A DNA stretch of 64,000 bases from Rhizobium sp. CCGE 510 (GTDB lineage: Bacteria > Pseudomonadota > Alphaproteobacteria > Rhizobiales > Rhizobiaceae), in NCBI RefSeq assembly GCF_000292525.1, contig NZ_AEYF01000001.1, positions 62,001 through 126,000 on the forward strand. Reading direction: 5' to 3'. Shown in pieces: positions 28,559-35,204 of this stretch. Numbering within the stretch: position 1 is the stretch's first letter; every line of letters begins with the position of its first letter. The translations under genes and the position numbers were made by a program. The notes under the pieces were generated by a model. The model did no database searches. It was not told the origin of the DNA and worked only from the letters and a program-made list of their open reading frames with translations.

Positions 28559-29881
28559 ATGTCACGGCGTTCAACCTTTGTTCTCATGATGATGCCCGCG
28601 CCCGACAAGACACCCGGCTTCTGTCGCGACTGCCTTGCCGAGCAGAAGGGCGAGGCGCGCCGTTGCGTGTCCTGCGGCAGCCCCCGTCTGGTGCGCCATC
28701 GCGAGCTCTACGCATTGACGCTTGCGCATATCGATTGCGACGCCTTCTACGCGGCCGTCGAAAAACGCGACAATCCGGAGCTTGCCGATAAGCCGGTGAT
28801 CATCGGCGGCGGCAAACGCGGCGTCGTCTCCACCGCCTGCTATATCGCCCGCATCCACGGCGTGCGTTCGGCGATGCCGATGTTCAAGGCGCTGGAAGCA
28901 TGTCCCGAGGCGATCGTCATTCGGCCCGACATGGAGAAATATGTCCGGGTCGGGCGCCAGGTGCGCGCCATGATGCAGGATCTGACGCCGCTGGTGCAGC
29001 CGCTGTCGATCGACGAGGCCTTCCTCGAGCTTGACGGCACCGAGAGGCTGCATCACGATCCGCCGGCGCGAACCCTCGCCAAATTCGCCCGCCGGGTCGA
29101 AAAGGAAATCGGCATCAGCGTTTCGGTCGGGCTTTCCTATTGCAAATTCCTTGCCAAGGTTGCCTCCGACCTGCACAAGCCGCGCGGATTTTCCGTCATC
29201 GGCCGTGAGGAAGCGGTCGAGTTTCTGGCGCCGCGCGCCGTCACCACGATCTGGGGCGTCGGCAAGGCCTTTGCGGCGACGCTTGAGGCAGACGGCATCC
29301 GCACCATCAGCCAGTTGCAGCAGATGGAGGAAAACGACCTGATGCGCCGCTACGGCAGCATCGGCCAGCGGCTCGCCCGGCTGTCGCGCGGCATCGACGA
29401 CCGTGAAGTGCATCTCAACGATGCGGCCAAAAGCGTTTCGTCCGAGACGACCTTCTTCGACGACATCTGGCGTTATGACGATCTGGTGCCGATCCTGCGC
29501 AATCTTTCGGAAAAGGTCGCCTGGCGGCTGAAGAAAAACGGCATTGCCGGCCAGACCGTGGTCTTGAAGATGAAGAGCGCCGATTTCAAATCGCGCACCC
29601 GCAACCGCAAGCTCGAAGACCCGACCCAGCTTGCCGACAAGATCTTCCGCACCGGGCTCGATCTTCTCGAAAAAGAAACTGACGGCACGAAGTTCCGACT
29701 GATCGGCATCGGCGTCAGCGATCTCGGCGATGCTGCGCGTGCCGATCCGCCCGATCTCATCGACCGGCACTCCGGCCGGCGAGCGGCCGCCGAAGCGGCG
29801 ATGGACAAGCTGCGCGACAAGTTCGGCAAGAATACGGTCGAGACCGGCTACACCTTCGGCAGCAGCAAGCGTGATTACTGA
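28559..29881 (+). CDS. dinB: DNA polymerase IV with N-terminal zinc-finger extension
   Basis: This Y-family polymerase copies past DNA lesions with low fidelity. The 440-residue protein has catalytic residues in [13 protein letters not shown] (D59) and [12 protein letters not shown] (D-E near 155), helix-hairpin-helix motifs near 235-260, and the little-finger domain in the last third. Ahead of the polymerase are about 50 extra residues with two CxxC pairs (C22/C25 and C36/C39), a probable zinc ribbon absent from E. coli DinB. I see no LexA box upstream, so SOS control is not evident for this copy. The C-terminal end lacks a canonical beta-clamp QLxLF motif. Confidence 0.93.
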
Positions 29882-31271: not shown

Positions 31272-34200
31272 TCAAACAAGCTCGACATCGACGACACCGG
31301 GAGCGGCGCGAAGAGCGGCGGCGATCTCCGGAGTGATGCGGTATTTCTCCGCCAGCGCCACTTCCACCTCGCGTTTGCCCTCCTCCTTGATGACGATGAA
31401 GGAAACCAGACCGTCGCCCTTGGCGTTCAGATGGCCGGCGACCATCTTCAGTGGCCCGGAATCTCTGATATAGACGCGCAGTGCCTTCTGCATCTGCAGC
31501 GACTTTTCCTCCAGCGACTGGATCGTCTGGATGCGCAGGCCGATGCCCTCCGGCCGCTCCTCACCGGTCGCGGTCAACACGAAGGATTTCCCCGACTCCA
31601 GCACGTCGCGATACTGGTTGAGCATTTCCGAAAACAGCACCGCCTCGAACTGGCCGGAAGAATCGGAAAAGACGATGATGCCCATCTTGTTGCCGGTGCG
31701 GGTCTTGCGCTCCTGCTTCGAAATGACGGTGCCGGCGAGCCGCGCATTGAAGGCGCCCTGTTTGATCGCTTGGGAAAACTCGGTAAAGGTCTGCACCCGC
31801 ATCTTCTGCAGGAGGTTGTTGTAGGAATCGAGCGGGTGGGCTGTGAGGTAGAATCCCAGCACCTGGAATTCCTTGAGCAGCCGCTCGGAGGCAAGCCAGG
31901 GCGAAAACGGCGGCAGGGAGATCTTTTCAGGCCCCGAGGTCAGGGTGCTACCGAAAATATCCGACTGGCCGCTCAGCTTGTTTTCCTGGGCACGCTGGGC
32001 ATAACCGAGGATACGGTCGAGGCCGGCCGAAAGCTGAGCGCGGTCGGCGCCGAAACAATCGAAGGCGCCGGCAAAGATCAGGCTTTCGAGCACACGGCGA
32101 TTGACCTGGCGCGGGTCGATGCGCAGGCAGAAATCTTCGATGCCGGCAAAAGGCCTGTCGCCACGCACCTCGACGATATGGTCGACGGCGGATTCGCCAA
32201 CACCCTTGAGAGCGGCGAGCGCATAATAGATGCGGTTGTCGCCGGTCTGGAAATGGCGGAAGGAGGTCTGCACCGAGGGTGCGATCACCTCGATACCGAG
32301 GCGCTTGGCATCCTGGCGGAAATCGTTGACCTTTTCGGTGTTGGACATATCGAGCGTCATCGAGGCGGCGAGGAATTCGACCGGATGATGCGCTTTCATA
32401 TAGGCCGTCTGGTAGGAGACGATGGCGTAGGCGGCGGCATGCGATTTGTTGAAGCCGTAATTGGCGAACTTCGCCAGCAGTTCGAAGATATTGTCGGCCT
32501 GCGGCTTCGATACGCCGTTCTTGACCGCGCCGACGACGAAGCGTTCGCGCTGCTGGTCCATCTCGGCCTTGATCTTCTTGCCCATGGCGCGGCGCAGAAG
32601 GTCGGCTTCTCCGAGCGAGTAGCCGGACAGGACCTGAGCGATCTGCATCACCTGTTCCTGGTAGACGATGACCCCTTGGGTTTCCTTGAGCAGGTGGTCG
32701 ATCATCGGATGGATCGATTCCAGCTCTTCTTCGCCGTGCTTGCGGGCATTGTAGGTCGGGATGTTTTCCATCGGGCCCGGACGGTAGAGCGCCACCAGGG
32801 CGATAATGTCCTCGATGCAGTCCGGCTTCATGCCGATCAGCGCCTTGCGCATGCCGGCACTTTCCACCTGGAACACGCCGACCGTCTCGCCGCGCGACAG
32901 CATCTCGTAGGTCTTCTTGTCGTCGAGAGGAATGGCCGCGAGATCGACCTTAACGCCGAGCTTGGCGACGAAATCGACCGCGACCTTCAGCACCGTCAGC
33001 GTCTTCAGGCCGAGAAAGTCGAATTTGACCAGGCCGGCCTGCTCCACCCACTTCATGTTGAACTGGGTGACCGGCATGTCCGAGCGCGGATCGCGATACA
33101 TCGGCACCAGTTTGGAAAGCGGGCGGTCGCCGATGACGATGCCGGCGGCATGCGTCGAGGCATGGCGGTAAAGCCCCTCGATCTTCTGGGCAATGTCGAG
33201 CAGGCGGGCGACGACCGGCTCCTTGGCCGCCTCTTCCTGCAGCTTCGGCTCCTCCTCGATCGCTTTGGACAGCGGCGTCGGATTGGCCGGATTGTTCGGC
33301 ACGAGTTTGCAGATCCTGTCGACCTGACCGTAGGGCATTTCCAGCACGCGGCCGACGTCGCGCAGGGCGGCGCGCGCCTGCAGCGAACCGAAGGTGATGA
33401 TCTGCGCCACCTGTTCGCGGCCATACTTGGCCTGGACGTAGCGGATCACCTCTTCGCGGCGGTCCTGGCAGAAGTCGATGTCGAAGTCCGGCATCGAAAC
33501 GCGTTCCGGATTGAGGAAGCGTTCGAAGAGCAGCGAAAACCGCAGCGGATCGACGTCGGTGATCGTCAAGGCGTAGGCGACCAGCGAACCGGCGCCCGAA
33601 CCGCGGCCGGGACCGACCGGAATGTCTTGCTGCTTGGCCCATTTGATGAAGTCGGCAACGATCAGGAAGTAACCGGGAAAACCCATGCGTTCGATGACGC
33701 CGAGTTCGAAGTCCAGTCGCTCGCGATATTCTTTTTCCTCGTAACCCGGCGACATGCCGAGCGTCGAAAGCCGCATGTCCAGCCCTTCGACTGCCTGGCG
33801 GCGCAGTTCGCTCGCCTCGGCGCGTTCGGCCTCCTCGGCATCGTCGGTCGCCCCGGTGAAGCGCGGCAGGATCGGCTTTCGCGTCTTCAGCACGAAGGAG
33901 CAACGCTTGGCGATCTCGATGGTGTTTTCCAGCGCTTCGGGCAGATCGGCGAAGAGCTTGGTCATCTCGGCCCGGCTCTTCAGATAATGGTCCGGGGTCA
34001 GGCGAAAGCGGCTGTCGTCGGAGACGATCGCATTGTGGGCGACCGCCATCAGCGCATCATGGGCATCGTAATCGTCGCGTGTCGGAAAGAAGGCCTCGTT
34101 GGTCGCAACCAGCGGCAGGTCGTTGATATAGGCGAGCTCGACGATCTTCTGCTCGTGCCGCTTGTTGTAGGTTCCGTGCCGCTGCAGCTCGACATAGAGC

Positions 34201-34769
34201 CGATCGCCGAAGAGACGCTTCAGCGCGAGCAGCCGGACTTCCGCCTGGGCGGGATGGCCATCCTTGATCGCCACGTCGACGGGCCCGGTCAGGGCGCCGG
34301 TCAAGGCGATCAGCCCTTCCGTACCGGCCTCCTCCAGCCAGGAGGCTTTGACATGAACGGCCTGGTTGCTTTCGCCGCCGAGATAGGCGCGGCTGACGAG
34401 ATCGACGAGCCGTTCGTAACCGGCATCGGTAGCGGCGAGAAGAACGATCGACGGCAGCTTGACCAGAGCCTGCTGGCCGCCGCGCTTTTCCGTTTCCAGC
34501 CCGTCTTCCATGTCGATCGAGACCTGGCAGCCGATGATCGGCTGCAGGCCCTCCTCCATCGCCTTCTGCGAGAATTCCAGCGCGATGAACAGATTGTTGG
34601 TGTCGGTAACGGCGATCGCCGGCTGGCTGTCGCCGGTCGCCTTGTAAAGGATCTTCTTCAGCGGCAAGGCGCCTTCGAGAAGCGAATAGGCGGAGTGGAC
34701 CCTCAGGTGGATGAAGCCCGGCGTGCCGCCGGTCACCTCAGCCGTTGAACCCTTTGCCGTATCCGCCAT
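31272..34769 (-). CDS. dnaE: DNA polymerase III alpha subunit
   Basis: DnaE is the replicative polymerase subunit. The 1165-residue protein has an N-terminal PHP domain (FIHLRVHSAYSLLEGA), the polymerase core with the catalytic aspartates in MPDFDIDFCQDRREEV, a helix-hairpin-helix region near 830-870, and a C-terminal OB domain. Its length marks it as the replicative DnaE1 rather than the mutagenic DnaE2. I chose ATG 34769 (MADTAKGST); a start five codons earlier (34784) is possible. A 28-codon membrane peptide gene lies just upstream on the same strand. Confidence 0.96.
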   Translation of the reverse strand: MADTAKGSTAEVTGGTPGFIHLRVHSAYSLLEGALPLKKILYKATGDSQPAIAVTDTNNLFIALEFSQKAMEEGLQPIIGCQVSIDMEDGLETEKRGGQQALVKLPSIVLLAATDAGYERLVDLVSRAYLGGESNQAVHVKASWLEEAGTEGLIALTGALTGPVDVAIKDGHPAQAEVRLLALKRLFGDRLYVELQRHGTYNKRHEQKIVELAYINDLPLVATNEAFFPTRDDYDAHDALMAVAHNAIVSDDSRFRLTPDHYLKSRAEMTKLFADLPEALENTIEIAKRCSFVLKTRKPILPRFTGATDDAEEAERAEASELRRQAVEGLDMRLSTLGMSPGYEEKEYRERLDFELGVIERMGFPGYFLIVADFIKWAKQQDIPVGPGRGSGAGSLVAYALTITDVDPLRFSLLFERFLNPERVSMPDFDIDFCQDRREEVIRYVQAKYGREQVAQIITFGSLQARAALRDVGRVLEMPYGQVDRICKLVPNNPANPTPLSKAIEEEPKLQEEAAKEPVVARLLDIAQKIEGLYRHASTHAAGIVIGDRPLSKLVPMYRDPRSDMPVTQFNMKWVEQAGLVKFDFLGLKTLTVLKVAVDFVAKLGVKVDLAAIPLDDKKTYEMLSRGETVGVFQVESAGMRKALIGMKPDCIEDIIALVALYRPGPMENIPTYNARKHGEEELESIHPMIDHLLKETQGVIVYQEQVMQIAQVLSGYSLGEADLLRRAMGKKIKAEMDQQRERFVVGAVKNGVSKPQADNIFELLAKFANYGFNKSHAAAYAIVSYQTAYMKAHHPVEFLAASMTLDMSNTEKVNDFRQDAKRLGIEVIAPSVQTSFRHFQTGDNRIYYALAALKGVGESAVDHIVEVRGDRPFAGIEDFCLRIDPRQVNRRVLESLIFAGAFDCFGADRAQLSAGLDRILGYAQRAQENKLSGQSDIFGSTLTSGPEKISLPPFSPWLASERLLKEFQVLGFYLTAHPLDSYNNLLQKMRVQTFTEFSQAIKQGAFNARLAGTVISKQERKTRTGNKMGIIVFSDSSGQFEAVLFSEMLNQYRDVLESGKSFVLTATGEERPEGIGLRIQTIQSLEEKSLQMQKALRVYIRDSGPLKMVAGHLNAKGDGLVSFIVIKEEGKREVEVALAEKYRITPEIAAALRAAPGVVDVELV

Positions 34770-34851
34770 GTCATGCCTTCCCAATCACCCGAATGAATCG
34801 GACGCATTGTCGGCATAGAGAGCGACGATGTCCAGAAGAAGTCCCGCGTCC

Positions 34852-34876
34852 GGACCGCATGATTGCCATGCGGTCC
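34852..34876 (-). terminator. perfect 10-bp hairpin between the small peptide gene and dnaE
   Basis: GGACCGCATG (34852-34861) pairs perfectly with CATGCGGTCC (34867-34876) around a 5-base loop. It begins 10 bases after the peptide's stop. No U tract follows, so it may stop transcription only partly, or protect the 3' end of a short SOS transcript. Confidence 0.55.
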
Positions 34877-34886
34877 CCTGAAAACT

Positions 34887-34973
34887 TTAGATCGCCATGA
34901 CGATGAGCGAGAAGCTGGCAACGAACATTGCGATGGAGGTGAATGCTGCGATATCACGGATCATGTCAGTCAT
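34887..34973 (-). CDS. 28-residue predicted membrane peptide under a LexA box
   Basis: The gene starts at ATG 34973, with a good ribosome binding site (GGAGAG, 4-5 bases before the start), and ends at TAA 34887. The peptide begins MTDMIRDIAAF and continues TSIAMFVASFSLIVMAI. That is a short charged N-terminus and one hydrophobic segment of about 20 residues, a single membrane span. About 30-55 bases upstream lies a TTGACA promoter overlapping a perfect GAAC-N7-GAAC LexA box. Size, topology, SOS control and position before dnaE all resemble SidA, the 29-residue SOS-induced Caulobacter inhibitor that acts on FtsW. Homology by sequence is not shown. It is too short for standard gene callers. Confidence 0.7.
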   Translation of the reverse strand: MTDMIRDIAAFTSIAMFVASFSLIVMAI

Positions 34974-35001
34974 TTGGCTCTCCGTTACTCGTTATGTTTT
35001 T

Positions 35002-35030
35002 AATTTGTTCGATGTTTGTTCTGTTGTCAA
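35002..35030 (-). promoter_or_regulatory. promoter of the 28-residue peptide gene
   Basis: On the minus strand a perfect TTGACA (35030-35025) is followed after 17 bases by CAAATT (35007-35002), a weak -10. Transcription would start near 34995, giving a leader of about 20 bases with a ribosome binding site. The LexA box fills the spacer. Confidence 0.6.
35007..35021. promoter_or_regulatory. LexA (SOS) box GAAC-N7-GAAC
   Basis: On the plus strand the site reads GTTC-GATGTTT-GTTC, exactly the direct-repeat LexA box of alphaproteobacteria (GTTC-N7-GTTC). It sits inside the spacer of the minus-strand promoter, where LexA would block RNA polymerase. The plus-strand DUF5680 gene starts 184 bases away and could also be affected, but I see no plus-strand promoter here. 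Confidence 0.85.
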
Positions 35031-35204
35031 CAGGAATCTTTTCCTTCTTTCTTGCGTTAGAAAATGCCGAACGCGCATTGCGATTCGGTAGAGGCAGACG
35101 GGCGACCTCTCTCAAGGCGAGCCGCATATTTCCGACTTGTGTTCCCTTTTTGTTCTTTACATGCCGCGGCATATTTGCCAGCATCCGGCCGAGAGGAGAA
35201 CGAC

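Follow-up and report, generated by a model that had tools for sequence, protein, structure and literature searches.

SidA of Caulobacter crescentus is described as an inhibitor of 29 residues that resides in the inner membrane and interacts with FtsW (PMC4211646, in excerpt); its gene is CCNA_02004 (PMC10769358, in excerpt), and the dnaE gene of the same species is CC1926 (PMC1839093, in excerpt). DidA, also from C. crescentus, resembles the peptide considered here, which would likewise inhibit division, in being a DNA-damage-induced, single-span membrane division inhibitor, and differs from it in comprising 71 residues, binding FtsN, and being independent of the SOS response (PMC4211646, in excerpt). 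YneA of Bacillus subtilis, SosA of Staphylococcus aureus, and ChiZ of Mycobacterium tuberculosis are SOS-induced small membrane division inhibitors, for which contact with FtsW has been shown (YneA) or modelled (SosA and ChiZ; PMC13396833, in excerpt). These three come from other phyla and are likened to our peptide by description, not by sequence. TisB and DinQ of Escherichia coli are also short, SOS-controlled membrane peptides; they act on the membrane itself and are under antisense RNA control, and TisB is a charged amphipathic helix. Finally, ribosome profiling of Sinorhizobium meliloti 2011 revealed translation of a frame, sORF25, located in the 5'-UTR of dnaE1 (PMC10117765, in excerpt), which is compared here by its position. 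The term 'SOS' does not occur in the main text of that paper.

The window is the whole stretch of DNA that was analysed, 64,000 nt of Rhizobium sp. CCGE 510 (contig NZ_AEYF01000001.1, positions 62,001 to 126,000). A candidate gene for a peptide of the SidA family lies on its minus strand, directly upstream of dnaE1, with the following features:

35025-35030, minus strand: TTGACA, putative -35 element (TTGA[CT] conserved 55-60 nt before the ATG)
35007-35021, minus strand: LexA-type operator GAACAAACATCGAAC, a perfect GAAC-N7-GAAC box (kept in 54 of 57 loci, at most 70 nt from the ATG)
34996-34999, minus strand: degenerate third half-site AAAC (half-sites at 11-nt spacing in the family consensus)
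34978-34983, minus strand: ribosome binding site GGAGAG (G-rich stretch at the same distance in the family consensus)
34887-34973, minus strand: single-span membrane peptide of 28 aa, SidA-family candidate (ATG frame, homologues, hydropathy)
34852-34876, minus strand: perfect 10-bp hairpin between the peptide and dnaE1 (not followed by a run of T)
34806-34834, minus strand: weak promoter-like site, possibly an independent promoter of dnaE1 (9 of 12 positions)
31272-34769, minus strand: dnaE1, replicative DNA polymerase III alpha subunit (TIGR00594, 1194.5 bits)

An earlier note on this DNA had described a 28-codon frame with a GGAGAG ribosome binding site and one predicted membrane span, and all of these were found as described at 34887-34983. 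The frame (34887-34973, minus strand) translates as MTDMIRDIAAFTSIAMFVASFSLIVMAI, with a best 19-residue mean hydropathy of 2.21 at residues 10-28, which predicts a single span, and with no charged residue after D7. The same note had placed a perfect LexA box in the spacer of a TTGACA promoter. The TTGACA and the box were borne out: the operator begins 3 nt past TTGACA and occupies nearly the whole 17-nt spacer, and 28 of 30 family loci carry TTGA[CT] at 55-60 nt 5' of the start codon. The promoter as a whole was less clear, in that its -10 element is weak and a consensus scan of the locus calls no promoter there. In the family consensus, the GAAC half-sites form an 11-nt repeat of which the third copy is degenerate. 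The start of dnaE1 is placed at the ATG at 34769, with a TTG at 34784 as a possible alternative.

To evaluate the frame, 57 loci were aligned, comprising the best 30 of 86 family matches and 27 new loci among 61 genus matches; all 57 are followed by dnaE on the same strand. Among 30 genus loci, variable columns numbered 5, 1, and 14 at codon positions 1, 2, and 3 (27 columns each; binomial p 0.0009), and dN/dS was 0.20. The remaining two frames of the genus loci gave pN/pS values of 1.02 and 4.12. A dN/dS of 0.21 was obtained for 30 family loci, where synonymous sites are close to saturation. The synonymous bias on which the earlier note had staked its reading is present, with dN/dS about 0.2. 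These patterns indicate that the frame is under purifying selection and that its amino acids are selected.

Perfect boxes are frequent enough that their number has to be read with care. Five occur in the whole window versus 1.77 expected, a number that 6 of 100 shuffles reach, and 201 occur genome-wide versus 133 for a reversed control pattern. Most single boxes are therefore chance, and genome-wide box counts carry no weight by themselves. In contrast, a box together with a short hydrophobic frame is a rare combination: the window contains 665 ATG frames of 20-60 aa, of which 13 have a hydropathy of at least 1.9 and three are preceded by a box no more than 70 nt away; the two with both properties are one frame with two ATGs. 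Moreover, the box ahead of the peptide is not chance, because 54 of the 57 aligned loci retain a perfect box no more than 70 nt from the ATG, usually at -47 or -48, versus 0.36% of shuffled upstream stretches. By group, the box is kept in 27 of 30 loci from the family and in all 30 from the genus. The three loci that lack a perfect box (L006, L007, and L014) each have a box with one mismatch. The conservation of the box ahead of dnaE, which the earlier note had anticipated, is thus seen in this sample. Six of the 57 loci (L004, L013, L018, L019, L024, and L027) carry two perfect boxes no more than 69 nt from the ATG; these generally share one half-site, with three GAAC at 11-nt spacing, and may provide stepwise LexA control.

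Controls within the same genome that have a perfect box are lexA (TIGR00498), an ssb gene (PF00436), and the gene preceding a dnaE2-like gene. A Pfam search with this last gene gives no family; its place is one that we take to be the imuA position. Two genes of the window also have a box. A Y-family polymerase gene, dinB-like (PF00817 IMS, E 6e-45; 28586-29881, plus strand), starts 2 nt past a perfect GTTC-N7-GTTC box at 28569-28583. A divergent DUF5680 gene (PF18931; 35205-35669, plus strand) has its own GTTC-N7-GTTC box at 35141-35155, 64 nt before its ATG. The DUF5680 gene was seen by motif search in 20 of 30 genus loci, 19 of which keep a box within 160 nt, and it is a candidate SOS gene to which no function is assigned.

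In the genus sample, all 60 genomes gave a match to the peptide; in the family sample, 79 of 151 did so at E ≤ 10, 55 of these at E < 0.01, in keeping with the conservation among relatives that the earlier note had looked for. No NCBIfam or Pfam model matches the peptide or three of its relatives at E ≤ 1. At the class level, we searched with a profile (A1) of 20 hand-picked peptides, comprising 8 of Rhizobiaceae type, 10 from other Hyphomicrobiales, and 2 from another family of the class, and leaving out the more diverged order peptides. This yielded matches in 20 of 385 genomes at E ≤ 0.05, six of them at E ≤ 2.2e-4 across nearly the whole model and 14 as short or weak pieces. Since similarity of the peptide alone does not reach far, a survey anchored on dnaE was used.

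In this survey, a short hydrophobic ATG frame preceded by a perfect box was detected in 20 of 40 order loci (from 120 matched genomes; one locus belongs to the same family as the window), 9 of 60 class loci (from 129 matched genomes), and 15 of 29 Caulobacteraceae loci, and the same combination appeared in none of 12,900 Markov-resampled sequences. A perfect box was absent from 17 of the 40 order loci and 49 of the 60 class loci. The survey kept the shortest hydrophobic ATG frame in the slot ahead of dnaE, and a few slot peptides (e.g., L033 and L053) may be chance or shortened. Of the 72 family genomes without a peptide match, 30 were examined: nine have a boxed, diverged slot peptide and 21 have no perfect box in the slot, and two further loci (L273 and L290) have a similar frame that lacks a perfect box. 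A search of phage sequences gave no match. The single record found among plasmids is a Shinella replicon of 4.6 Mb in which box and dnaE are both present; this record holds two annotated features in total, and the missing annotation of the peptide there is uninformative. Collectively, the gene is old yet patchy, having often been lost, diverged, or missed.

The Caulobacteraceae sample comprised 30 named genomes picked from 80 loci, with a dnaE match in 29. A related peptide occupies the slot in all 29, roughly 90-165 nt before the dnaE match. Its box has no mismatch in 15 loci and one mismatch in 14, a result that 9% of shuffles reach. The slot peptides are mostly 29 residues long, with a few of 30 and some with an earlier in-frame start; C. 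vibrioides OR37 is an example of a carrier, and its peptide has a 19-residue mean hydropathy of 2.06 versus 2.21 for the window peptide. From length, span, box, and slot, we infer that this peptide is SidA. In strain NA1000, sidA presumably adjoins dnaE; a place of sidA beside dnaE was also part of the earlier note's tentative proposal of a positional counterpart. The proposal is supported by gene order, with dnaE next to the peptide in every aligned locus and the Caulobacteraceae slot filled by a boxed peptide throughout. The window peptide thus shares with SidA a length of about 29 residues, one predicted inner-membrane span, a LexA-type box, and a place directly before dnaE. It differs in having 28 residues, an unlike C-terminal half, no Trp19, and no BLASTP match in the one pair compared.

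Several comparisons suggest that this likeness extends to the sequence. A profile-profile comparison of A1 with A2 (10 hand-picked Caulobacteraceae peptides) is gap-free with Met1 on Met1, at a probability of 83% and an E of 8.6e-6 in a single comparison. A10 and F17 are invariant in both sets, and R6, D/E7, and S13 are common by majority. With less selection of the input, an HMM of 17 order-level slot peptides scores 11 of 12 Caulobacteraceae peptides above 300 of 300 shuffles, and a Caulobacteraceae HMM scores all six Rhizobiaceae peptides tested above at least 299 of 300. In the sets from the order and from Caulobacteraceae, slot peptides shorter than 28 aa were dropped or re-started in frame and duplicates were removed; one class peptide was also given another in-frame start. 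Other results speak against it. An HMM built on Rhizobiaceae alone performs weakly on Caulobacteraceae (0-28 of 300 shuffles score equally high), most of the 17 order-level peptides are not told apart from shuffles by the Caulobacteraceae HMM, and BLASTP of one Rhizobiaceae peptide against the OR37 peptide gave no match. When anchored at the N terminus, register 0 scores 20.3 and the best of 12 other registers 7.3, and the register-0 score is reached by 43 of 20,000 column permutations. The alignment to which the earlier note had pointed, made with the presumed SidA, gives similarity above controls. Peptides of other Hyphomicrobiales families link the Rhizobiaceae and Caulobacteraceae groups, and the case for homology to SidA is made by these intermediates, gene order, and regulation taken together. 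Judged in this way, the window peptide appears homologous to SidA, the SidA side being represented by the Caulobacteraceae slot peptide and not by a sequence labelled sidA.

These observations and the analogy with SidA suggest that the window gene probably encodes a LexA-repressed inhibitor of the SidA family, which would act on division at the FtsW/FtsI/FtsN step. LexA bound to the GAAC-N7-GAAC operator just past the -35 element would hold the gene off, and RecA-driven cleavage of LexA upon DNA damage would open the promoter. The 28-residue peptide would then be made and inserted in the inner membrane as a single helix, where it would most likely keep the late divisome complex FtsW/FtsI/FtsN inactive, such that septation would be delayed until repair is complete. 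The sequence lends support through the operator, the -35 element, the ribosome site, the selected frame, gene order, and similarity to the Caulobacteraceae slot peptide. The earlier note had read the frame as a rhizobial SOS checkpoint peptide; box, selected frame, gene order, and similarity agree with that reading, whereas the checkpoint function is one that we infer.

The peptide might share descent with SidA and be under LexA control, and yet act on another target in rhizobia, such as the machinery of polar growth rather than FtsW. In favour of this, Rhizobiales grow from one pole (PMC8546619, in excerpt), and the C-terminal half of the window peptide is unlike that of the Caulobacteraceae set, whose invariant Trp19 it lacks. 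We consider such a change of target unlikely, given that the N-terminal half is kept (R6, D/E7, A10, and F17), which suggests a kept partner.

The position of the peptide directly 5' of dnaE1 on the same strand admits a reading in which the frame is a leader of dnaE1 (uORF): the act of translating it, rather than the peptide made, would tune the replicative polymerase, perhaps depending on the SOS response. sORF25 may be the same gene as, or an ortholog of, the window peptide; it lies in the dnaE1 5'-UTR, and uORF action is named as possible for such frames (PMC10117765, in excerpt). The gap between peptide and dnaE1 also contains a hairpin in many genus loci (23 of 30 have perfect stems of at least 7 bp, with a varying loop), and a scan of this gap called no terminator. 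Apart from this hairpin, however, neither a conserved RNA structure nor a constant coupling with dnaE was seen: the gap ranges from 36 to 445 nt (with starts called crudely), the fold of the 261-nt leader does not exceed that of shuffles (z -0.07), and dnaE1 may have a separate weak promoter, with one promoter-like site found upstream of it versus 0.3 expected in shuffles. Selection on the amino acids, which are alike across families, further argues that the product matters, and a leader function is accordingly quite improbable.

A toxin of the TisB/DinQ type, which would damage the membrane and slow growth with no divisome target, would fit an SOS-regulated peptide of this size and is slightly more doubtful still. 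A charged amphipathic helix like that of TisB was not found, as the span has no charge after residue 7 (D7), and gene order and similarity tie the peptide to SidA. Length, single span, and SOS control are the properties in which the two are alike (DinQ: PMC3567139, in excerpt). Lastly, that the frame is chance and the box alone matters, as an operator that could in principle serve dnaE1, is contradicted by codon-level conservation (a codon-position bias and a dN/dS of 0.2, both missing in the other frames), and the presence of the peptide throughout the genus sample and of related peptides in other families makes such a reading almost certainly wrong.

The SidA-family reading can be carried further, if tentatively. 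The LexA box, the SidA-family peptide, and dnaE1 might constitute a single checkpoint locus that is ancestral in Alphaproteobacteria and was retained by Hyphomicrobiales and Caulobacteraceae, with local losses, and through which the SOS response stops division and adjusts the polymerase by read-through. We regard this as possible but rather less than probable; if true, replication and septation would be tied to a single operator.

Among the literature matches listed, the window gene is unreported, the remark on sORF25 aside, and an earlier remark on SidA homologues (e.g., in the 2011 SidA paper) is possible; the available excerpts name SidA solely as a Caulobacter protein, with no rhizobial counterpart. 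What is new seems to be breadth, namely that of the SidA family and of the box/dnaE locus across Hyphomicrobiales, for a kind of system that was already known. The residues common to both groups (R6, D/E7, A10, S13, and F17) provide a first map of possible divisome contacts. Should the homology hold, a single SOS division checkpoint, encoded by easily missed genes, would extend over much of the Alphaproteobacteria, and division arrest after DNA damage in rhizobia would become a directly testable question.
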